Part shown: piece by piece, positions 40,235 to 50,461 of the stretch
Position numbering within the stretch: the first letter of the stretch is position 1
How the letters are laid out: each line of letters starts with the position of its first letter
Assembly (NCBI GenBank): GCA_016865505.2
Contig: AP025252.1
Coordinates: 5,478,137 to 5,542,136 of the forward strand
Source: Bryobacterales bacterium F-183
GTDB taxonomy: Bacteria; Acidobacteriota; Terriglobia; Bryobacterales; Bryobacteraceae
Reading direction: 5' to 3'
Length of the DNA stretch: 64,000 nt
Translations under genes and position numbers: made by a program
The notes under the pieces: generated by a model
Database searches by the model: none
What the model was told of the DNA's origin: nothing
Seen by the model: only the letters and a program-made list of their open reading frames with translations

Positions 40235-42220
40235 ATGCGGCATCCGGTCTTTGCGTTGCTCGCCTGTACAACCCTCCTCGCACAGGCACCCGCGGTCACC
40301 TCGTGGACCCCGGAACTTTCCCTGCAATTCCAAACCGTCACAAACGTCAGCGTCTCCCCCGACGGCAAGTCGGTCGCCTGGATTCAAACAAAGCCCTTGC
40401 TCGAAACCGAACGAAGCGAGCAGATCGCGCATCTTTGGGTGGCCGCATCCGACGGATCTCGGCGCATCGCGCTCACCCGCGGCGACCGTAGCGCGATCAC
40501 CGGTGGCCTCGCCAGATGGTCGCCGGACAGCCAGTCGCTTTTCTTCCTCTCCAACCGCAGCGGAGGCTCGCCGCAGATCTACCGTATGCGCATCGCCGGC
40601 GGCGAAGCCGAAAAACTGACCGATTTCAAAGGCGCGATCGGGACCTTCGGCCTCTCGCCCGACGGCACAACAATCGCGTTCACCGCGCGTGAAACAGACC
40701 CGGAAGAGGAGAAGGCGAAGAAAGAAAAGCGCGACATGCGCATCGTCGACATCCCCAATCAGAATCAAACGCTATACCTCGTCCCCACCGCAGCCGACGT
40801 GGACGGCAAGCGCAAGCACCGCAAGCTGATCGACGCCAAGCATCATATCCCCAACTTTGACTGGTCGCCCGATTCCAAAGCCATCGCCTTCACCCGCTGG
40901 CCCGGCACGCTGTACGACAACTGGATCAAGGCCGACGTCGCGGAAGTAGACATCGCAACCGGCGCCATCAAGGACCTCGCGGCATCCGCCACTGCCGCCG
41001 AAACCGACCCGCAGTATTCGCCCGACGGCAAGTACATCGCCATCACACGCAGCAGCGGCCCAAAGCCCAAGTGGGCCTTCGCCAATCGCATCACTCTACT
41101 GGCCCGCGCCGGAGGTGCACCCCGCGAACTCCCCGCCACCTACGATGAACAGCCGCGCGTCATCGGCTGGGCCAAGGACTCTTCCAAGCTCTACTTCACC
41201 GAAGCCAAGCGCACCCGTACCTACATCGGTGCGATGCCCATCGATGGACCCCCATCCGTCTTCTATGAGATCTCGCGAGGCGTCTTCACGGCGGACCTTA
41301 ACGCCACCGGCACCCACTTCGGCCTCAGCTTTGAGACGCCCGATCAACCCTCCGAAGCGTACGCGATGCCCGTAGGCGGCACCACCACGATGAAGCGAGT
41401 CAGCGCTGCCAACAGTGAGATCGCCAAGCCTGCCGTGGGCCGCACAGAGGCCATCACCTGGAAGAGCAAAGACGGCCTCGATGTAGAAGGTCTTCTTACA
41501 TACCCCGTCGGCTACAAGGAAGGCGACAAGGTCCCGCTCATCCTCAATATCCACGGCGGCCCGACAGGTGTTTTCAACGAAGGCTTCCTCGGCAAGAGCG
41601 GCATCTATCCACTCGCAGTCTTCGCCTCCAAAGGCTACGCGATCCTGCGACCCAACCCTCGCGGGTCCAGCGGCTATGGCAAGGACTTCCGCTTCGCCAA
41701 CTACAACGACTGGGGCGGCAAAGACTATGAAGACGACCAGGCCGGCGTCGACAAGCTCATCCAGATGGGCATCGCGGACCCGGACCGCCTCGCCATCATG
41801 GGCTGGTCCTATGGCGGCTACATGACCAGTTGGACCATCACCCAAACCAACCGCTTCAAAGCCGCCGTCATCGGAGCCGCCGTCACCAACCTTTGGAGCT
41901 TCACCGGCACAGCCGACATTCCGGGCTTCATCCCGGACTACTTCGGCGGCGAACCCTGGGACAACATCGAGCCCTACCGCAAGCACTCCCCGATCACCCA
42001 CATCAAGAACGTCAAGACACCCGCGTTGATCCTGCACGGCGAAGCCGATGACCGCGTCCCCGTCGGACAAGGCTACGAATACTACAACGCGCTCAAGCGC
42101 CAGGGCGGCATCGCCAAAATGGTCGTGTACCCGCGCACGCCACACGGCCCGCGCGAACCCAAGTTCGTGCTCGACATCATGCAGCGCCACCTCGATTGGG
42201 TAGAGAAGTATGTTCGCTAG
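40235..42220 (+). CDS. S9-family serine peptidase, tandem copy 1
   Basis: A 661-residue exported peptidase of the prolyl-oligopeptidase/dipeptidyl-peptidase family. Signal peptide MRHPVFALLACTTLLAQ. An N-terminal beta-propeller of WSPDS/SPDGK repeats runs to about residue 380. The C-terminal alpha/beta hydrolase has the nucleophile Ser525 in GWSYGGYM, Asp in HGEADDRVPV and His in PRTPHGPREPKF. It removes dipeptides or cleaves short peptides, probably in the periplasm. The stop overlaps the start of copy 2 by 11 bases. Three homologous genes in a row suggest substrate diversification. Confidence 0.96.
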   Translation: MRHPVFALLACTTLLAQAPAVTSWTPELSLQFQTVTNVSVSPDGKSVAWIQTKPLLETERSEQIAHLWVAASDGSRRIALTRGDRSAITGGLARWSPDSQSLFFLSNRSGGSPQIYRMRIAGGEAEKLTDFKGAIGTFGLSPDGTTIAFTARETDPEEEKAKKEKRDMRIVDIPNQNQTLYLVPTAADVDGKRKHRKLIDAKHHIPNFDWSPDSKAIAFTRWPGTLYDNWIKADVAEVDIATGAIKDLAASATAAETDPQYSPDGKYIAITRSSGPKPKWAFANRITLLARAGGAPRELPATYDEQPRVIGWAKDSSKLYFTEAKRTRTYIGAMPIDGPPSVFYEISRGVFTADLNATGTHFGLSFETPDQPSEAYAMPVGGTTTMKRVSAANSEIAKPAVGRTEAITWKSKDGLDVEGLLTYPVGYKEGDKVPLILNIHGGPTGVFNEGFLGKSGIYPLAVFASKGYAILRPNPRGSSGYGKDFRFANYNDWGGKDYEDDQAGVDKLIQMGIADPDRLAIMGWSYGGYMTSWTITQTNRFKAAVIGAAVTNLWSFTGTADIPGFIPDYFGGEPWDNIEPYRKHSPITHIKNVKTPALILHGEADDRVPVGQGYEYYNALKRQGGIAKMVVYPRTPHGPREPKFVLDIMQRHLDWVEKYVR

Positions 42221-44051
42221 CCTCGTCGCGTTCACACTGGCCACGTGGACGCCGGAAGCGCAGTTGAAGGTCACCGGCTTCGGCGAAGTCGTACCCTCAC
42301 CGGACGGCAAGCTCACCGCGTGGACTGAGGTTCGCCCCGGCTACGCGAGGCTCCGCATTGGAGGCAAAGAGGTCCCCGTCTGGACTGGCACCGCCACCGG
42401 ACTCACCTTCTCGCCAGACGGCAAGTACCTCTACTGGCAGTCCGGCAACGTGGCGTTTCGCACGCTCACCCAAGGCCCCGGCGAACCCCAGCGTCTCAGC
42501 CGCTACCCGGGAAATGTCGGGCCGTACAAGCTCTCGCCAGACGGCACGATGCTGGCCTTCCTCGCCCAGGAAGAGATCGCCCCCAAGTCCCGAATCCGCG
42601 TCGTCGGCGAACTCAAGTACCGGCACAAACTCTGTACGATGCCCTCAGACGGCACCTCTGGAGAAGTCGCCTGCAAGGTCACTCCCGTGGGCTTCGCTGC
42701 AGGACTCGAATGGTCGCCCGACGGTCGCGCCATCGCCTTCGAATCGCGAGTCACGCCCTTTCCGGACGACTCTCGAACCTCCGACATCTACGAGGCCGAC
42801 CTCGCCACCGGCGAACTCCACGAGATCGCCAAGACCGGTGCGTCGGAAGCGCAGCCTGCGTACTCGCCCGACGGCCGCTACCTCGCCTATGTCCGCAGCG
42901 ACAATCCCCCGCTGCAGCCTGGCGACGAGCACCTCGTTCTCTACGATCGCACTCGCAAGTCCACCCGAGCCCTGCCGTTCACGCAGGATCGTCTCCCCAA
43001 GATCCTCGGCTGGTCGCCCGACAGCCGCAACGTCTACTACACCGAAGCTCGCGGCACTCGTAACGTCGTCTTCGCGATGCCGCTGGACGGTCCGCCAACG
43101 TCAATCTTCACGCCCGATGGAGTCGCCTCGGCGATGTCCCCCAGCCACACCGGCAAGTACCTCGGCTTTGCTCTCGAAACCGCAGAATCAGCCCCGGAAG
43201 CGCATCTGCTCACTCTTGGCACCGGTAAGCCGGAAAAGCTCAGCGCCGTCAACGCCAATGTAGAATCCGTCGGCAAGACAGAGATCTTCTGGTGGCGCTC
43301 CCGCGACAACCTGGAGATCGAAGGCCTCATCACGTACCCGGCAAACTTCGACAAGTCCAAGAAGTACCCGATGATCGTCATCCTCCACGGCGGACCCTAT
43401 GGCAACTTCACCGAGTCCTTCGTAGGACGCAGCGGCCTCTACCCCATCGCGACCTTCGCCGCCAAAGGCTATGTCGTATTCCGTCCCAACCCTCGCGCCT
43501 CCACCGGCTACGGGCGGGACTTCCGATACGCCAACCTCAAAGACTGGGGCGGCGGCGATTACAACGACGTCATCACTGGCGTACGCAATGTCATCGGTCT
43601 TGGCTTTGTCGACAAGTCCCGCATGGCTGTCATGGGCTGGAGCTATGGCGGCTTCCTCACCAACTGGACGGTCACCCACACCAATGAATTCAAGGCGGCG
43701 GCCGCAGGCGCAGGTGTATCCAACCTGCTCAGCCAAACCGGCACCAGCGACATCCGCAGCAACAAGATCGATGCCTTCGGTGCACCCTGGGACAACCAGC
43801 AGTTCTACATCGAACGCTCGCCGCTGACGTACGCCAAGAACGTCACTACACCAACTCTGTTCCTCGGCGGCGATGCCGACGAACGCGTCCCGATCTCGCA
43901 GACCTACGAGATGTACCACGCCCTCAAGCGACGCGGCGTACCCACGCAGATGGTCGTGTACCCCGGCGCGCCGCACTCTCCAACCGATCCCGAATACGTC
44001 CTCGACATCATGAAGCGCCATATCGATTGGGTGGAAAGATATGTTCAATAA
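42210..44051 (+). CDS. S9-family serine peptidase, tandem copy 2
   Basis: A 613-residue homologue of its neighbours, about 30-50 residues shorter, mainly in the propeller. The start overlaps copy 1 by 11 bases (ATGTTCGCTAG). The leader is short (MFASLVAFTLATWTPEAQ) and may or may not work as a signal peptide. Propeller repeats (EWSPDGRAIAFES, GWSPDSRNVYYTE) precede the hydrolase domain with Ser478 in GWSYGGFL, Asp in GDADERVPI and His in PGAPHSPTDPEY. The GGFL and PHSP changes relative to the neighbours suggest a different substrate range. It overlaps copy 3 by 11 bases. Confidence 0.95.
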   Translation: MFASLVAFTLATWTPEAQLKVTGFGEVVPSPDGKLTAWTEVRPGYARLRIGGKEVPVWTGTATGLTFSPDGKYLYWQSGNVAFRTLTQGPGEPQRLSRYPGNVGPYKLSPDGTMLAFLAQEEIAPKSRIRVVGELKYRHKLCTMPSDGTSGEVACKVTPVGFAAGLEWSPDGRAIAFESRVTPFPDDSRTSDIYEADLATGELHEIAKTGASEAQPAYSPDGRYLAYVRSDNPPLQPGDEHLVLYDRTRKSTRALPFTQDRLPKILGWSPDSRNVYYTEARGTRNVVFAMPLDGPPTSIFTPDGVASAMSPSHTGKYLGFALETAESAPEAHLLTLGTGKPEKLSAVNANVESVGKTEIFWWRSRDNLEIEGLITYPANFDKSKKYPMIVILHGGPYGNFTESFVGRSGLYPIATFAAKGYVVFRPNPRASTGYGRDFRYANLKDWGGGDYNDVITGVRNVIGLGFVDKSRMAVMGWSYGGFLTNWTVTHTNEFKAAAAGAGVSNLLSQTGTSDIRSNKIDAFGAPWDNQQFYIERSPLTYAKNVTTPTLFLGGDADERVPISQTYEMYHALKRRGVPTQMVVYPGAPHSPTDPEYVLDIMKRHIDWVERYVQ

Positions 44052-45969
44052 ACTCGTCCTGTTCACCGCCACAGTGTGCGCCGCAGCCACCTGGACTCCG
44101 GCGTCCATGATGAAGGTCAAACCCGTCGCGGCAGTCACCCCGTCGCCAGACGGCAAACTCGTTGTTTGGACAGAGAGCCGCGCCCTCATGGAAGGCGAAA
44201 AGAGCGAGATGCTCGTACAGCTCTGGCTCGGCAAGACGGACGGCTCATCGCGCTTCCAACTCACCTCCGGCGACAAGAGCGCGACAGCACCGGCCTGGTC
44301 GCCCGACAGCAAGACCATTTACTTCCTGCGCGGCGGCCAAGTCGAAAAGATCCCCGTCGACGGAGGCGAGGCCGAAGCTGCCACCAAGTTCGCCGGCAGC
44401 GTACAGAGCTTCGACCTCTCGCCCAACGGCAAGTGGATCGCCTTCACCGGCCGCGAGACCGACAAGGATGACGAAGCCGCACGCCGCGAGAAGCGCGACT
44501 TTAAGGTCATCGACGAGAACCCTAAGAACGCAGCCCTGTTTGTACAACTTCTCAGCAGCGGCAAGCCTCGTAAAGTCGCCAGCGGACCTTGGCACGTCGC
44601 GAACCTGGACTGGTCGCCGGACTCTGCACGCATCGCCTTCGAAACACATCCCACGCCCGGTGCCGACGACGGTCCCATTGCCGACGTAATGGAGGTGGAA
44701 GTCGAAACCGGCAACGTGCGCGCCATCGCCACCACCAAAGGCACCGAATCCTCTCCGCGCTACTCGCCCGACGGCAAGTACATCGCCTTCGTACACATCG
44801 CCGGCGAGGCCGCCCGCGTCCTGCGAGGCTCACGCGTCGCACTCTACACCCGCGCCAACGGCAACGTGCGCGACCTTCCGGCGTCGCATGACGAATCCCC
44901 GCAGATCGTCGGCTGGGCCAAGGACTCCACTCGCATCTACTTCGCAGAATCCCGGGGCACGCGCTCCGAGCTCTACGTCGCGCCCGTCGATGGACCGATC
45001 ACGACGTTGTACGCCCCGACCTCCGGAACGAACACCGGCGTGACCTTGAACGCAACGGCAACCCACTTCGGTATGGTGTCGCAAACCCCCAACGAACCGG
45101 CCGAAGCCTACGTTCTCGACCTCGCCTCCAACAAGCCGGTACGCGTGAGTGAAGCGAATACGGGAATCCCCCGTACTGGCATTGCAGAAACGCGCCTCAT
45201 CAAGTGGAAGTCTTCGAAGGATGGCAAGGAGATTGAAGGTCTGCTCACACTTCCCCTTGGCTATCAGGCCGGCAGGAAGTATCCGCTGATCCTCAACATC
45301 CATGGCGGACCCGCAGGTGCCTTCAATGAGCAGTTCATCGGTAATGCTGCGATTTATCCAATAGCAGCATTCGCGGAAAAAGGCTTTGCCGTACTTCGCC
45401 CCAATCCGCGAGGCTCATCGGCCTACGGTCGCGGCTTTCGCAATGCCAACGTGAACGACTGGGGAGGCGGTGATTACCTGGATCTCATGTCCGGCGTCGA
45501 CGAAGTCATCAAGCAAGGCATCGCCGACGCAGACAAGCTTGCCGTAATGGGCTGGAGCTACGGTGGCTACATGACCAACTGGGTCATCACGCAAACCAGC
45601 CGCTTCAAGTGCGCAGCGTCTGGCGCGGGTCTGTCCAACATGGCGTCGATGTGGGGAACGAATGACATCCCCGGCTTAATCGACGAGTACTTCACCGGGC
45701 CGTGGTACGACCAACCGCAGCGGTACGAGAATCTCTCGCCTCTCTTCCATGCGAAGAAAGTCACCACACCGACGCTTTTCTTACACGGTGAGCAGGACTT
45801 CCGTGTGCCCATTACACAGGCCTACGAAATGCACAACGCACTAGAGCGTCGTGGTGTAGCAACACAGATGGTGGCTTACCCGCGTACGCCGCATGGACCT
45901 CAGGAACCCAAGTTCCTGCAGGACGTCATGCAGCGCCACCTCGACTGGGTGGATCGCTATATTCAATAG
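44041..45969 (+). CDS. S9-family serine peptidase, tandem copy 3
   Basis: A 642-residue third copy, starting within the last codons of copy 2 (ATGTTCAATAA). Leader MFNKLVLFTATVCAAATW is a likely signal peptide. The propeller has SPDGK and SPNGK repeats, and the hydrolase domain has Ser506 in GWSYGGYMTNW, Asp in HGEQDFRVPI and His in PRTPHGPQEPKF. In the catalytic blocks it looks closer to copy 1 than to copy 2. A strong terminator follows 17 bases after the stop, so the three genes form one complete transcription unit. Confidence 0.95.
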   Translation: MFNKLVLFTATVCAAATWTPASMMKVKPVAAVTPSPDGKLVVWTESRALMEGEKSEMLVQLWLGKTDGSSRFQLTSGDKSATAPAWSPDSKTIYFLRGGQVEKIPVDGGEAEAATKFAGSVQSFDLSPNGKWIAFTGRETDKDDEAARREKRDFKVIDENPKNAALFVQLLSSGKPRKVASGPWHVANLDWSPDSARIAFETHPTPGADDGPIADVMEVEVETGNVRAIATTKGTESSPRYSPDGKYIAFVHIAGEAARVLRGSRVALYTRANGNVRDLPASHDESPQIVGWAKDSTRIYFAESRGTRSELYVAPVDGPITTLYAPTSGTNTGVTLNATATHFGMVSQTPNEPAEAYVLDLASNKPVRVSEANTGIPRTGIAETRLIKWKSSKDGKEIEGLLTLPLGYQAGRKYPLILNIHGGPAGAFNEQFIGNAAIYPIAAFAEKGFAVLRPNPRGSSAYGRGFRNANVNDWGGGDYLDLMSGVDEVIKQGIADADKLAVMGWSYGGYMTNWVITQTSRFKCAASGAGLSNMASMWGTNDIPGLIDEYFTGPWYDQPQRYENLSPLFHAKKVTTPTLFLHGEQDFRVPITQAYEMHNALERRGVATQMVAYPRTPHGPQEPKFLQDVMQRHLDWVDRYIQ

Positions 45970-45986
45970 CAAGTGAAGAAATGCGC

Positions 45987-46032
45987 GAAGGGCGCGGCAT
46001 CCCAAACGGGAACGCCGCGCCCTTCTTGCTTT
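45987..46032 (+). terminator. Rho-independent terminator of the S9 peptidase operon
   Basis: A perfect 12-base stem GAAGGGCGCGGC (45987-45998) / GCCGCGCCCTTC (46014-46025), with TCCC/GGGA pairing inside the loop, followed by TTGCTTT. It lies between the peptidase stop and the convergent DksA-type gene and may stop transcription from both sides. Confidence 0.8.
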
Positions 46033-46053
46033 GCGGGAAAAATGTGGCCGGAA

Positions 46054-46434
46054 TTAGGCGACGAGCAGTTCGTCGAACTCTTCCGAGAACTCTTCCTGAC
46101 GGCGATCCGCGATCTCTTGGCAGGAGATGCAGTACGGAGTCCACGGCACAGCGTTGAGGCGCTTCAGATTGATGTCCTCTTCGCAGTGCATGCACACGCC
46201 GTACGAGCCTTCCTCGATGCGGCGCAGCGCCGCGCGCACATTGCGCAACAGCGTGGACTCACGGTCCAGCGTACGGATCGCGAGTTCGCGCTCCGCTGCG
46301 TGCTGCACTTCATCGAGCGCATCAGGCGTCTTTTCGATCGCGATGCCTTCGCGATTCCGCACGTTGCCCTCGAGTTCGCGACGCTTCGCGTCCAGGGTCA
46401 TCTTAAAGCGGTTGAGTTCGGTCTTGGTCATCAT
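46054..46434 (-). CDS. DksA/TraR-family zinc-finger regulator
   Basis: A 126-residue protein. An N-terminal coiled-coil hairpin (residues about 1-75) is followed by a canonical four-cysteine zinc finger, Cys81, Cys84, Cys102 and Cys105 (CMHCEEDI, CISCQE). DksA-type proteins insert into the RNA polymerase secondary channel and, with ppGpp, retune ribosomal and amino-acid promoters. The start has a good AGGAG 8 bases upstream. Two ATG codons in a row leave 126 or 125 residues. Upstream is a 515-base leader and a strong promoter, suggesting post-transcriptional control. It is shorter than E. coli DksA (151), so TraR/DksA2-type function is possible. Confidence 0.93.
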   Translation of the reverse strand: MMTKTELNRFKMTLDAKRRELEGNVRNREGIAIEKTPDALDEVQHAAERELAIRTLDRESTLLRNVRAALRRIEEGSYGVCMHCEEDINLKRLNAVPWTPYCISCQEIADRRQEEFSEEFDELLVA

Positions 46435-46949
46435 GGTTGCTTCTCCTCTGATCTTTCTTGTTTTGTTGTCTTTGTTGTTGTCTACTAACTGTTTTCAACT
46501 AGCTGCTTCACTTGCTGCTTTACTTTTGTGTTATGCCGTCTTAGACGCTATCCATTCGCGAAAGGTTCAGCGTTTTGCGAATGATTTACGTCGCTGACAA
46601 ATTTGTTACAATCCGCAACTCGCATCTCTTTTCGTCCTTCGCAAGACTACGAGATGACGATTACTACAAAAAGGTTTCACGTTCCTTCCAACTTCTGACC
46701 CATCTTCTTAGCACGACGCCTTCCAAACCATCTAACGCGAAATTCGCGTCAGAATCGGCGCAAGATATCATGCTGCGCCCTCCAGCATCTCGTCACGACG
46801 GACGGATACCGCTAGATCCGCTTGCGGGTGGAACCTACCTACATTTTTGGGGGTAGTTAACGATCGCTGAAGATGACGCCCCGGACCGGGAACCCTCGCG
46901 ATCTTCTACTTGCCAAAGCCGTGCTGAATTGTTTTTACTGATTCAGCTT
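46435..46949 (-). ncRNA. Long structured leader or small RNA upstream of dksA-type gene
   Basis: No convincing protein gene lies in this stretch, which is visibly more AT-rich than its surroundings. Read on the minus strand from the promoter at 46956-46983, it contains successive stem-loops: GCTGAAT/ATTCAGC (46923-46947), GAAGAT/ATCTTC (46869-46906), GGCGCA/TGCGCC (46756-46779), an 11-base near-perfect stem at 46731-46753 and the element at 46553-46582. A purine-rich ribosome-binding region follows. It may be a regulatory leader or an independent RNA whose 3' end lies before the coding region. It is not a recognisable 6S, tmRNA, SRP or RNase P RNA. Confidence 0.45.
46553..46582. repeat. Stem-loop element, copy 2, in the dksA leader
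   Basis: Arms CATTCGCGAAA (46553-46563) and TTTTGCGAATG (46572-46582) pair over 11 positions with one G/T wobble. The loop is GGTTCAGC. The core AAAGGTTCAGCGTTTTGCG is nearly identical to the element at 16773-16796, with paired substitutions in the stem. A weaker related sequence (AAAAAGGTTTCACGTT) lies at 46668-46683. Confidence 0.45.
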
Positions 46950-46955
46950 TTCGGT

Positions 46956-46983
46956 ATGTTACCACGTCAGCGCACAATGTCAA
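46956..46983 (-). promoter_or_regulatory. Strong sigma70-type promoter driving the dksA leader
   Basis: On the minus strand TTGACA (46983-46978) and TAACAT (46961-46956) are separated by 16 bases. The -35 box is a full consensus match. The predicted transcript would start near 46949, immediately at a 7-base stem-loop. The dksA ATG is about 515 bases downstream. Confidence 0.65.
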
Positions 46984-47091
46984 GCAATTTTTTAGCCAAA
47001 CTTGCCGCGTCCAACCATTGACCAACCATATCGACGCGCCGACCCTCGTACTTTAGGGCAAATCGTATACTAGAAAGAGTCCCGCCAGCCA

Positions 47092-48735
47092 ATGCCCCCC
47101 AGTCGCTTCAAGACCATACTCCTCATCGTCTGCGCCTGCTTCTTTCTGCTCTGCCTGGCCTTTATCCCCCTCATCGGGATTCAAAACGACGAGGCGCTCT
47201 TCGCCACTGTCGTCTACGGACCGATCCTCCGCGAGTTCCGCCTCCGCGCCTTCGGACACGACCTCCCGCTCATGGTCATGACCTATCTCGGCGCCTTAAA
47301 ATCATGGGTTTACGCCGCCATCTACGGCCTTTTCACGCCGTCCCTCTTCAGCCTGCGCATTCCCCCGGCGGTCATCGGTGCTGCCACCATCGCCGTCTTT
47401 TCTGCTTTCCTCAGTAAAGCGACAAAATCGCTTCCAGCCGCCATCGCCGCCGCGTTTCTTTTGGCCCTCGACCCCTCTTTCCTTTTGATGACGGTCTACG
47501 ATTGGGGTCCCGTCGCTTTCCAGCACCTCTTCCTTGTGTGCGGATGCTACCTCTTGTGGAAGTTCGCCAACAACCCAGACGCTCAGCGACCTCTGTTTTT
47601 GGGATTCTTCTGTCTCGGTATGGGACTCTGGGACAAAGCACTGCTGAGTTGGAGTCTCATCGGCCTCAGCATCGCTACAGTTAGCGTTTTTCATCGGGAA
47701 CTGCGCCAACTGTTCACGCTACGGCGAGCGGGCATTGCAATCCTCGGTTTTCTGATTGGCGGAGCTCCATTAGTTCTCTACAACGTCCGCCACGGCCTCA
47801 AAACCTTCCGCGGCAACGCCAAAATCGACTGGAGCGAGGTCGCGCCCAAGTGGGTCCATGCAAAGTCAACCCTTGACGGATCGGCACTTTTTGGGTATCT
47901 CGTCCGGGAAGAGTGGGAAAAAACGTCTGTACCGCCCGCGCCCGGCCTCGCAACCACCAGCTACGCCCTCCGCGAAGCCGTTGGAGAGCGCCGCCAGACC
48001 CTCGGCTACTGGGCCTTCCTGATCTCCGCCCTCGCCGTACCTCTGTGGTGGCGTCGCCGCCGTGCGGCCTTCTTCGCGCTCATCTACCTCGCCTGCGCCT
48101 GGACCATCATGGCCGCCACCAAGGACGCCGGTGCCTCCGCACACCATGTCGTACTCCTCTGGCCCTTCCCGCAGTTTGTGATCGCTCTGGCCTTCGCTGG
48201 TCTCGCCGACCGCGGCCGCTGGGGCGTCCTTACTCTCGGGATTGTCGTAGGCGTACTGTCCACCCAGAATTTCCTGGTGCTGAATCAGTACTACACGCAA
48301 GCCACACGCTTCTGCGGCGGCACCGTCTGGACCGATGCCATGGACCCGCTCCACAAAGCGATCGTCAACCGCCCGGCACCCACCCCCATGGTGAACCTCC
48401 TCGGCTGGGGCACCGAGTTCACGCTCATCATGCTCGAGAAAGGTAAATTGCCGCTCCGCAACGCGTCAGTACACGTGGCGGCAGACAACCCCAGCCAGGA
48501 CGACCGCAACGCGATACAGGCCATCCTAGGCGAAGCAGGCGCCCTCTACGTGGGCCATGTGGAGGACCAGGAACTCCAACCCGGCTTAGTCAAGCGGTTT
48601 GACCAGCAGGCTGCGTCCTTCGGCTACCGTCGCGAGGAAGTTCAAATCATCGCCGACCGTTGCGGCCGTCCGATGTTCGAACTCTTCCGCTACGTCCCCG
48701 CAGCTACTGCTGCAGCGACACCGTCCCCCAAATAA
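47092..48735 (+). CDS. GT-C-type membrane glycosyltransferase (GT39/ArnT-like)
   Basis: A 547-residue polytopic protein with about ten hydrophobic segments. The first periplasmic loop after helix one carries an acidic pair (Asp33-Glu34 in GIQNDEALFATV), the position of the catalytic acid residues in protein-mannosyl- and ArnT-type transferases. The C-terminal 150 residues are soluble and periplasmic. It would use a polyprenyl-phosphate sugar donor, with the acceptor unknown. A TATACT -10-like box lies at 47066-47071, but no clear -35 or Shine-Dalgarno was seen. Its last 32 bases overlap the convergent membrane protein gene. Confidence 0.85.
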   Translation: MPPSRFKTILLIVCACFFLLCLAFIPLIGIQNDEALFATVVYGPILREFRLRAFGHDLPLMVMTYLGALKSWVYAAIYGLFTPSLFSLRIPPAVIGAATIAVFSAFLSKATKSLPAAIAAAFLLALDPSFLLMTVYDWGPVAFQHLFLVCGCYLLWKFANNPDAQRPLFLGFFCLGMGLWDKALLSWSLIGLSIATVSVFHRELRQLFTLRRAGIAILGFLIGGAPLVLYNVRHGLKTFRGNAKIDWSEVAPKWVHAKSTLDGSALFGYLVREEWEKTSVPPAPGLATTSYALREAVGERRQTLGYWAFLISALAVPLWWRRRRAAFFALIYLACAWTIMAATKDAGASAHHVVLLWPFPQFVIALAFAGLADRGRWGVLTLGIVVGVLSTQNFLVLNQYYTQATRFCGGTVWTDAMDPLHKAIVNRPAPTPMVNLLGWGTEFTLIMLEKGKLPLRNASVHVAADNPSQDDRNAIQAILGEAGALYVGHVEDQELQPGLVKRFDQQAASFGYRREEVQIIADRCGRPMFELFRYVPAATAAATPSPK

Positions 48736-50461
48736 GCCCCAGGTCGCGCTTATCCCCAGGGACGCGCGTCGCTCGATCCACAGAAAAAGTCAAAGGCAGC
48801 CATCCGTCGCGACTCAGGCCCGGCGGCAGATCTACCCGCCAATCAAAGGCGTCGACCTTCTCAAATCGCTTCGTACCCAACACCGTCGACCCCGAAGCCA
48901 CCGTCAGCGAGACCGGACCCTGCGCGATCACAGTCTCGGGACAAAACCCGGTAACCCGCACGCGCCGATCTCCAGGCTCCGCACCAATCCGCAGCGACGC
49001 CGTCTTCGCCATCCACCGGAACTTCCCTTCCACCGGCCACCACCCAGGACCTAGCAAACTCTCGTACGCCGTTTCTCCCAGATTGATACTCCGCGGACGG
49101 CTCTGCACATACTGTGGCAGGATCACGCTGCGGTACCGGTTGGTCGCGTCGGACACCCGGTCTCCGGCAATCGACAGCACGATCGTTTTGCCACTCTCCA
49201 AAGCCTCCACAGCCTGCCGCTGCGAGATCTTGTATGCCGACACACCGCCCAAGTCCGCACGCGCGCGTATGCCGCTCTCGGACCCCGGCACCAGGTACAC
49301 CTTGTTCAGCCCGTACAGCCGAAACGGCGTGTCCTGCAATCCCGTATTGAAAAGCTCCGTATCGATCCCGCTCAGCAGCACCGTATCCGCACCCTTTGCG
49401 CGCGCCGCCGTGGACCCGTTCTCCAGCAGATTCTGAATCCGCTGCGAGGCAGTCAAAAAGAAGTCGATCTCCGGCCGCGCCGCACTCGCGGACATCCATA
49501 CATAGCCCGCACACACCGCCAACTCCACCATGCCGGCGACTCTGCCGCGGACCGTACCCGCCAACAGCGCGACTCCCGTCAGCGGTAGCGCCAAATAGTA
49601 TCCGGAGATCCGGTTCTGCAGCGGCAACACCGGTGCCAGCAGCACTACGAACCAAGCCGCAAAGTACAAGGGCAGAAAGTCCCGCTCCTTCGCAGCCCGC
49701 CATACCGCCCACCCAAGCAGCGCGACCCCAAACGCCCCTGCTGCCATCCACGAGTACTCGCCCAGGCTCGCCAGCATCCCCAGGTCGTACACCGCAGCGT
49801 ACTCATTGCCCGACGGCCGTGGGATCACAAACAAATGCAGGACCACAAACAGCAGCGCCGGTGGCCACAGCCACAACGTACGTCGCCACTGCTCACGCGC
49901 AAACAGCCAGCAGTACAGCGTAGCCAGGGCCGGATACACCACAGCCGTTTCGAGCACGCCGAACCACACCAGGTACACCGCATACTGCGCCCACCACCTG
50001 CCACGCAGCAGGAACCAGAACGCCAGCAACAGGCAAAGCGACGCCAGGATTTGGTTGAACGATGCCGCCCACATCAACGGGCGTGCCAAGTGTGCCGATG
50101 CGGCATACACGACGCCCGCAGCCAGCGCCTGCATCCATGTGCCACCCAGAAACGCCGCGATGCGAACCAGCAGCCAAAGTACGGCCAGCTGGCAGCCGAA
50201 CGCAATCAAGCGAAATGGCAGCGGGTCGATCCCGAAGATACTGCTGAGTCCAAAGAAGTACAGCCGCTCGCTGAACAACCGCACCGTACCCTGTGCGCGA
50301 GGCTCAAACAGCACAGCCAATCCGCCGCCAGCGTCGATCTCCTGCTTGAGCCCGAGCCAGGCAAAGTCGTCCATCAGGAACCAGACGTCAAACGCCTGCC
50401 AATAGACGCCAAAGCACACGGCCACCGCAGCTAGCCAAGCGAGCCAGAACCCGCGGGTCAC
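48704..50461 (-). CDS. Polytopic membrane protein, GT-C glycosyltransferase-like
   Basis: A 585-residue protein with about ten membrane segments in the first 330 residues and a soluble C-terminal half. An acidic pair follows the first helix (FLMDDFAWLGL), matching the DD/DE motif of GT-C transferases, though sequence similarity to the neighbour at 47092 is not obvious. The C-terminal half ends in beta-rich sequence (DLGLIWGTVSLQQ). The start overlaps the lipoprotein stop by 4 bases (ATGA type), so it is downstream in a unit with the lipoprotein and molybdoenzyme. Function in surface glycan or protein glycosylation is inferred. Confidence 0.82.
   Translation of the reverse strand: MTRGFWLAWLAAVAVCFGVYWQAFDVWFLMDDFAWLGLKQEIDAGGGLAVLFEPRAQGTVRLFSERLYFFGLSSIFGIDPLPFRLIAFGCQLAVLWLLVRIAAFLGGTWMQALAAGVVYAASAHLARPLMWAASFNQILASLCLLLAFWFLLRGRWWAQYAVYLVWFGVLETAVVYPALATLYCWLFAREQWRRTLWLWPPALLFVVLHLFVIPRPSGNEYAAVYDLGMLASLGEYSWMAAGAFGVALLGWAVWRAAKERDFLPLYFAAWFVVLLAPVLPLQNRISGYYLALPLTGVALLAGTVRGRVAGMVELAVCAGYVWMSASAARPEIDFFLTASQRIQNLLENGSTAARAKGADTVLLSGIDTELFNTGLQDTPFRLYGLNKVYLVPGSESGIRARADLGGVSAYKISQRQAVEALESGKTIVLSIAGDRVSDATNRYRSVILPQYVQSRPRSINLGETAYESLLGPGWWPVEGKFRWMAKTASLRIGAEPGDRRVRVTGFCPETVIAQGPVSLTVASGSTVLGTKRFEKVDAFDWRVDLPPGLSRDGWLPLTFSVDRATRVPGDKRDLGLIWGTVSLQQ

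Follow-up and report, generated by a model that had tools for sequence, protein, structure and literature searches.

The window, a stretch of 64,000 nt from Bryobacterales bacterium F-183, carries on its minus strand an ORF (46434-46054) for a DksA/TraR zinc-finger protein, as judged by its match to Pfam zf-dskA_traR (41.3 bits). Its best NCBIfam match is TIGR02420 (dksA), at 80.1 bits and below the cut-off of 115.5 for that model. A dksA homologue is present in 99 of 101 genomes, that of F-183 included. An earlier, sequence-only reading of this DNA had proposed a long structured leader or small RNA upstream of a DksA-type regulator, and as regards the regulator it is borne out. At 40235-45969 lie three S9 prolyl-oligopeptidase-like genes in tandem, the third recognized by Pfam and the other two by resemblance. 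On the far side, the control region of dksA is bounded by a divergent ORF (Table 1), which forms a long, convergent pair with the ORF at 48704-50461 on the minus strand; the two ends overlap, neither ORF has a Pfam match at E 0.001, and both look like membrane proteins by eye.

The interval upstream of dksA is AT-rich and without a credible protein gene, as had been claimed: its GC content (46435-46948) is 0.475, compared with 0.596 in the window. It holds two minus-strand ORFs of at least 20 aa that begin with ATG (35 and 25 aa), and G001, a genome of the same genus, has a different one instead, so that we rejected a short protein-coding ORF within the leader. On the plus strand there is a TTG ORF of 93 aa, within which the G001 alignment has gaps of lengths not divisible by three. 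Directly in front of the dksA start, 45 nt (46435-46479) are A-rich and identical in G001 at 45/45 positions, as against 30/50 in the 50 nt upstream of them; perhaps this is an element for translation or RNA stability.

Table 1. Features of the dksA locus, in window coordinates
Feature	Position	Strand	Remarks
dksA-type ORF, 126 aa	46054..46434	-	Pfam zf-dskA_traR and NCBIfam TIGR02420
Predicted long leader of the distal sigma70-type start, about 515 nt	46435..46949	-	fold z -2.29; 2/101 genomes
Proximal ECF-type promoter P1 (putative), GAACCTT-N14-CGTCTAA	46541..46568	-	top PWM site of the window; kept in G001
Weak second ECF-like site, GAAACCT...CGTCATC	46653..46678	-	PWM 15.6; spacing 17, 2-3 nt shorter than P1
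Long stem-loop of the predicted leader	46862..46903	-	closing pair G-C, A-U in G001
5' hairpin of the predicted leader	46923..46947	-	one pair U-A, C-G in G001
Sigma70-type promoter (putative), TTGACA-16-TAACAT, TG before the -10	46956..46983	-	10/12 consensus bases
Sigma54-type -24/-12 site, TGGCTAAAAAATTGC (TGGC-N7-TTGC)	46984..46998	-	abuts TTGACA of the sigma70-type promoter
Sigma28 (FliA/SigD)-type site, TAAAG-N15-GTCGATATGG	47026..47055	-	boxes kept in G001
Divergent ORF, 547 aa, bounding the dksA control region	47092..48735	+	no Pfam match at E 0.001

A 556-nt stretch of this region is matched in only two of the 101 genomes, that of F-183 itself and G001 (83% identity), and the alignment of the two consists of conserved islands amid diverged sequence. 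In G001 the TTGACA hexamer is kept at 6/6 positions with the same spacing of 16, and the -10 element, TATTAT, is better than TAACAT of the window. The sigma54-type sequence TGGCTAAAAAATTGC directly before TTGACA is kept at 14 of 15 bases. Farther upstream, CCTAAAG and GTCGATATGG are identical at 16 of 17 positions, whereas the spacer between them agrees at only 3 of 15. Closer to dksA, TGAACCTTTCGCGAATGGATAGCGTCTAA lies inside a block kept at 56/61, and the 50 nt around the weak second ECF-like site are identical at 46/50. Boxes conserved around a diverged spacer of constant length suggest a promoter-like pattern.

The sequence of the distal sigma70-type promoter by itself proves little: TTGACA-16-TAACAT with up to two mismatches has a single match in the window, and shuffled sequences average 1.56. 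Similarly, 2.7 kb contain three promoter-like sites, compared with 1.1 (sd 0.9) after shuffling. It is the conservation in G001 that makes this site convincing. The promoter postulated by the sequence-only reading is thus present, but probably not as the sole start, since a conserved ECF-type promoter lies close to the gene. This site, P1, is the best-scoring PWM position on either strand of the window (23.4), where sites scoring above 10 have a background of 0.055 per kb and strand. The hallmark boxes of ECF promoters, according to an excerpt of PMC8103513, are AAC at -35 and CGT at -10, and P1 has both. The predicted P1 start falls near 46535, which would give a 5' UTR of about 100 nt. In silico, therefore, conserved P1 places a start near the ATG, the finding that the sequence-only reading had named as counting against its leader.

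Motifs conserved upstream of dksA in Bryobacteraceae

We compared the best 80 of 110 dksA loci, which together with the window gave 81 upstream regions and, once L051 with its 62 nt of upstream sequence was dropped, 80. Because one of them (L033) is the G001 contig, 78 come from outside the genus. The record titles mostly name Bryobacteraceae, Bryobacterales or Acidobacteria. Three MAG titles (L052, L077 and L110) name Bordetella, Arcobacter and Acidimicrobiia; the dksA genes in them are 67-74% identical to that of the window, and the records are probably mislabelled.

The ECF-type site is the motif nearest the gene. A strict ECF pattern occurs within 200 nt of the start codon in 61 of the 80 regions (shuffles average 0.0; reverse strand 0), and in all 61 strict sites AAC and CGTC are 19 or 20 nt apart. 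When the gap in the AC-type pattern AAC[CT]T-gap-CGTC[TA] was varied over the last 300 nt, gaps of 14 and 15 were found at 32 and 36 loci, and no remaining gap between 6 and 23 at more than three. A PWM site is present in 72/80 regions, mostly 65-190 nt upstream of the start codon. Since 61 of these same 80 regions served to train the matrix, independent evidence comes not from its counts but from the gap scans and from the 12 held-out loci described below. Farther upstream, at 300-1000 nt, at least 33 of the 80 loci have an ECF-type site with a PWM score above 10, a lower bound because no more than three sites, the best-scoring, were retained for each locus. In a few of these loci the farther site is the sole strong one, and in one cluster a second ECF-type site lies about 250 nt before P1. 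Directly in front of the ECF -35, a short inverted repeat (TnAGCG...CGCTnA or TGAG...CTCA) can be seen by eye in L034, L046, L070, L073 and L087. It is possibly an operator; by count it is not a terminator.

As for the sigma54-type site, TGG-N8-TTGC is found in 74/80 upstream regions (5.9 in shuffles) and the stricter TGGC-N7-TTGC in 59/80 (2.05 in shuffles; 2 on the reverse strand). Other gaps (3-6, 8-10 and 12) give 0-4 loci, except for gap 11 with 17 loci, where TTGC recurs as TTGCTTGC. The window contains eight matches to the sigma54 pattern on both strands against 3.8 expected, which makes such a site meaningless in a single sequence; it is conservation and place that carry the claim. An excerpt of PMC3333780 gives the sigma54 consensus boxes as TGGCAC-N5-TTGC, and TGGCTAAAAAATTGC has TGGC and TTGC rightly spaced, with CT in place of the CAC tail.

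An extended -10 element (TGnTAnnnT) follows the sigma54-type site within 40 nt at 67 of 73 loci, where 5.1 would be expected. The distances between the two fall into two classes, 6-11 nt (40 loci) and 15-21 nt (27 loci, the window among them). Only the class with the longer spacing has a recognizable -35 element, with 3.4 matching bases compared with 2.46 in shuffles; in the shorter class the corresponding value, 2.5, is at background.

Upstream of the sigma54-type site, a sigma28-type motif completes the array. TAA-N19-CGATA occurs at 41/80 loci, a gap of 18 at six, and the remaining gaps from 12 to 26 at 0-3. With gaps of 17-20, the pattern is found in the 160 nt before the sigma54-type site at 36 of 73 loci (0.32 in shuffles; 0 on the reverse strand). 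Counted with a gap of 18, 19 or 20 before the sigma54-type site, it is present at 39 of the 80 loci and missing from 41. The site listed in Table 1 is the one exact match to TAAA-N18-CGATA in the window; allowing one mismatch yields eight, against 4.4 expected. The published sigma28 consensus, as excerpted from PMC3333780, is TNAAG-N14/15-GCCGATA. The site upstream of dksA, TAAAG-N15-GTCGATA, departs from GCCGATA at one position, and the gap scan across the family peaks at one value.

The recurrence of these motifs extends beyond alignable sequence. By blastn at E 1e-3, the 450 nt in front of the ECF site sort into 21 groups with no match between one group and another, yet the motifs recur: at least one member has the sigma54-type site in 20 clusters, the ECF-type site in 18, the -10 element in 16 and the sigma28-type site in nine. 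Cluster C (seven loci) has the sigma54-type site once and the -10 element not at all, and the cluster of L104, L108 and L112 is without a -10 element. Of a further 28 loci (L005-L032), we kept as a held-out set the 12 whose last 60 nt match none of the 80 and dropped 16. These 12 were not used to find the motifs; three of them (L015, L019 and L027) had turned up in a later pattern search for the ECF site. Of the 12, 11 have the ECF-type site, 11 the sigma54-type site, ten the extended -10 and eight the sigma28-type site.

Outside the family the picture is different. We considered 17 dksA-like loci, taken with unchecked start codons from 16 genomes of other families in the same order or class, one of which (L223) has only 219 nt of upstream sequence. 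No ECF site above a score of 7 was found at any of the 17. TGG-N8-TTGC occurs at four, one of them (L210, at -183) near the Bryobacteraceae form, and a sigma28-like site at three, in two cases near the gene (L213 and L216). This scarcity makes the array look like a Bryobacteraceae trait, bearing in mind that some outgroup genes may be paralogues. Within Bryobacteraceae, the motifs, their spacings and their order are conserved. The sequence-only reading had looked to dksA upstream regions of relatives for conservation; conserved sequence elements are indeed there, but what the family keeps is the promoter array and not an RNA. Family-wide, then, the function of the interval would seem to be that of promoter DNA, used by several sigma factors.

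Sigma factors of the sigma54, sigma28 and ECF classes are encoded in the F-183 genome. RpoN of F-183 is the product of the L115 ORF (TIGR02395, 400.1 bits; cut-off 277.35). Two matches in the F-183 genome lie above the TIGR02479 cut-off for FliA/WhiG-type sigma factors, a gene type present in 44 of 61 genomes. An RpoE-like ECF sigma factor is found at E 1e-60 in 56 of the 61; both counts include F-183. The ECF motif precedes the RpoE-like sigma gene at 3/30 loci, too few to indicate autoregulation, and the cognate sigma factor of P1 may be another ECF sigma. Strict ECF matches in the F-183 genome equal those of the backward control in both scans (1 vs 1 and 2 vs 2), and a pattern search of 61 genomes returned 11 sites, six of them before dksA, compared with three for the backward pattern. 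In F-183 an ECF-type site also lies about 80-100 nt before groES (L113:1501-1526; G000:C1:905260-905285). A heat-shock ECF regulon including groES was rejected, with the motif at 1/30 groES loci in addition to the 3/30 RpoE-like sigma loci.

The predicted leader RNA and the question of a small RNA

Within the genus, the predicted long leader looks structured. Its MFE is -151.8, compared with -138.1 (sd 6.0) in 100 shuffles, two of which are equally stable, and the stem-loops noted in the sequence-only reading, the first of them right at the predicted start (46947-46923), hold up. When the stretch before P1 is folded as an alignment of two sequences, the window and G001, it scores z -3.86 against column shuffles. 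Of 131 predicted pairs, six differ on both sides between the two sequences and still pair, and the block at 46849-46805 is kept at 40/45. With two sequences only, this is suggestive of a real fold in the genus. The sigma54-type site and P1 are 431 nt apart in the window and 439 nt apart in G001, as against 92-326 nt at the other loci having both sites; the genus thus carries extra, structured sequence between the promoters.

The fold and the conserved block favor the idea that the leader is a functional element that controls dksA after initiation, through feedback or through binding of a small molecule or protein. We nevertheless regard it as unlikely to be the main explanation. Rfam gave no match at gathering score in the window, so that a known RNA family or riboswitch, which the sequence-only reading had thought worth searching for, was rejected. 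With the threshold relaxed to E 5, the one match in the region 45950-47150 was mir-1397 (E 1.6), and it falls within the dksA ORF. The 5' 191 nt of the leader have strong matches in 2/150 genomes, and beyond these the best match is 22 nt long, at E 0.01. A profile built from the two leader sequences matches only its own two members among the 81 upstream regions, and a family-wide conserved RNA was rejected on this ground. Alignment folds in other clusters are mixed. Before P1, z is -2.87 for cluster A, -3.12 for E and -2.28 for F, and ranges from -1.63 to +0.95 for the others. After P1 it is -14.5 for C, -4.4 for G, -3.4 for B2, -2.4 for F and -2.2 for J, with the others near zero, the column shuffle being crude for gapped or small alignments. 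Moreover, part of the conservation of the interval arises because promoters sit inside it. Of the proposed riboregulatory leader, what survives is a conserved distal promoter and a fold that beats chance in the two members of the genus; no Rfam family and no family-wide structure emerged, and among the genomes searched the sequence was found only in F-183 and G001. A riboregulatory leader specific to the genus of F-183 is possible.

Less probable still is that the distal sigma54/sigma70-type promoter is the start of a separate small RNA whose 3' end lies before P1. Small RNAs of this kind, GlmY and GlmZ, have overlapping sigma54 and sigma70 promoters (excerpt of PMC4098024), and the 5' part of the leader has prominent stem-loops. 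Such an RNA, however, would be expected to end in a terminator, and terminator-like hairpins before P1 were found at 10/75 loci, compared with 13.0 for shuffled sequences and 12 for the reverse strand; a consensus scan for terminators on the minus strand of the interval found none. A small RNA with its own terminator was therefore rejected, hairpins being visible by eye in some clusters but in numbers not above those of shuffles. With no excess of terminator signals in front of P1, a transcript that reads through into dksA is the more economical interpretation. 6S RNA was also rejected, as the F-183 genome has no RF00013 match at E 0.001 (5/14 control genomes give one). Finally, that the motifs are transcription-factor sites or remnants and not promoters in use seems very improbable: they are known from sequence alone, and the inverted repeat by the ECF -35 in some clusters could be an operator, but each of the motifs agrees with the consensus of a known sigma class and has a constant spacing of its own.

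A candidate composite control region and known systems

The reading that we consider likely is that 47055-46435 is a composite control region, in which promoters of different sigma classes stand in tandem and supply dksA. Judging by the motifs, each site would be used as a promoter. The sigma28-type site would start transcription near 47018, and the overlapping sigma54/sigma70 start would lie about 515-540 nt upstream of dksA (predicted starts about 46972 and 46949). P1 would yield a dksA transcript with the short leader. In the genus of F-183, the long leader would be the extended 5' UTR of the distal start, bearing hairpins. With the ECF site near the gene, the 515-nt leader can be at most one of several transcripts, and probably is one of them. 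Sigma54 promoters need activation by an enhancer-binding protein. In such an arrangement, DksA would be made whichever holoenzyme dominates, be it in growth, in starvation or nitrogen stress, in a sigma28 programme or in envelope stress.

It is established that DksA, acting with ppGpp, shifts RNA polymerase from one sigma factor to another. If dksA is itself transcribed by several of them, a loop would close between sigma competition and the stringent response. We lean slightly against committing to the fullest version of this model, in which Bryobacteraceae DksA is under four sigma classes (sigma28, sigma54, sigma70 and ECF), its supply either tracking holoenzyme shifts or being buffered against them, and the distal transcript of the genus also carries a new structured leader between the promoters. 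The predictions, both of start sites and of sigma dependence, are precise. The motifs would provide an initial consensus of promoters of several sigma classes for Bryobacteraceae, a soil group on whose sigma factors we found almost nothing in the literature.

To our knowledge, the dksA promoter region of E. coli is not known to contain sigma54, sigma28 or ECF sites. That region was reportedly treated by Chandrangsu et al. in 2012 (cited in PMC7461557). No comparable dksA promoter array is described in the literature that we found, a search that covered titles and abstract openings and left most subscription journals outside its coverage, and no publication found joins Acidobacteria, ECF sigma factors and dksA. 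The main text of a 2025 survey of sigma54 regulons (PMC12316311) contains neither dksA nor terms beginning with Acidobacteri-.

Several known systems nonetheless share parts of the arrangement, as far as excerpts of the respective papers go. In GlmY/GlmZ (PMC4098024), as upstream of dksA, a sigma54 site overlaps a sigma70 site; those promoters drive small RNAs, whereas the F-183 region shows no terminator signal and leads into dksA. A study of the Geobacter sulfurreducens RpoN regulon (PMC2725144) likewise examined dksA in the context of RpoN, but tabulated it with an RpoD promoter, unlike the sigma54-type site in F-183. The sigma28 promoter of Chlamydia pneumoniae hctB, TNAAG-N15-GCC (PMC3333780), has the boxes and the 15-nt spacer of the site proposed here; it serves another gene, and the F-183 site is a prediction from sequence. 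Lastly, in E. coli RpoE and DksA/ppGpp belong to one circuit (PMC8103513), as we propose for an ECF sigma factor and DksA in F-183. The direction differs: in E. coli DksA affects RpoE-dependent promoters, whereas in F-183 an ECF-type promoter precedes dksA.
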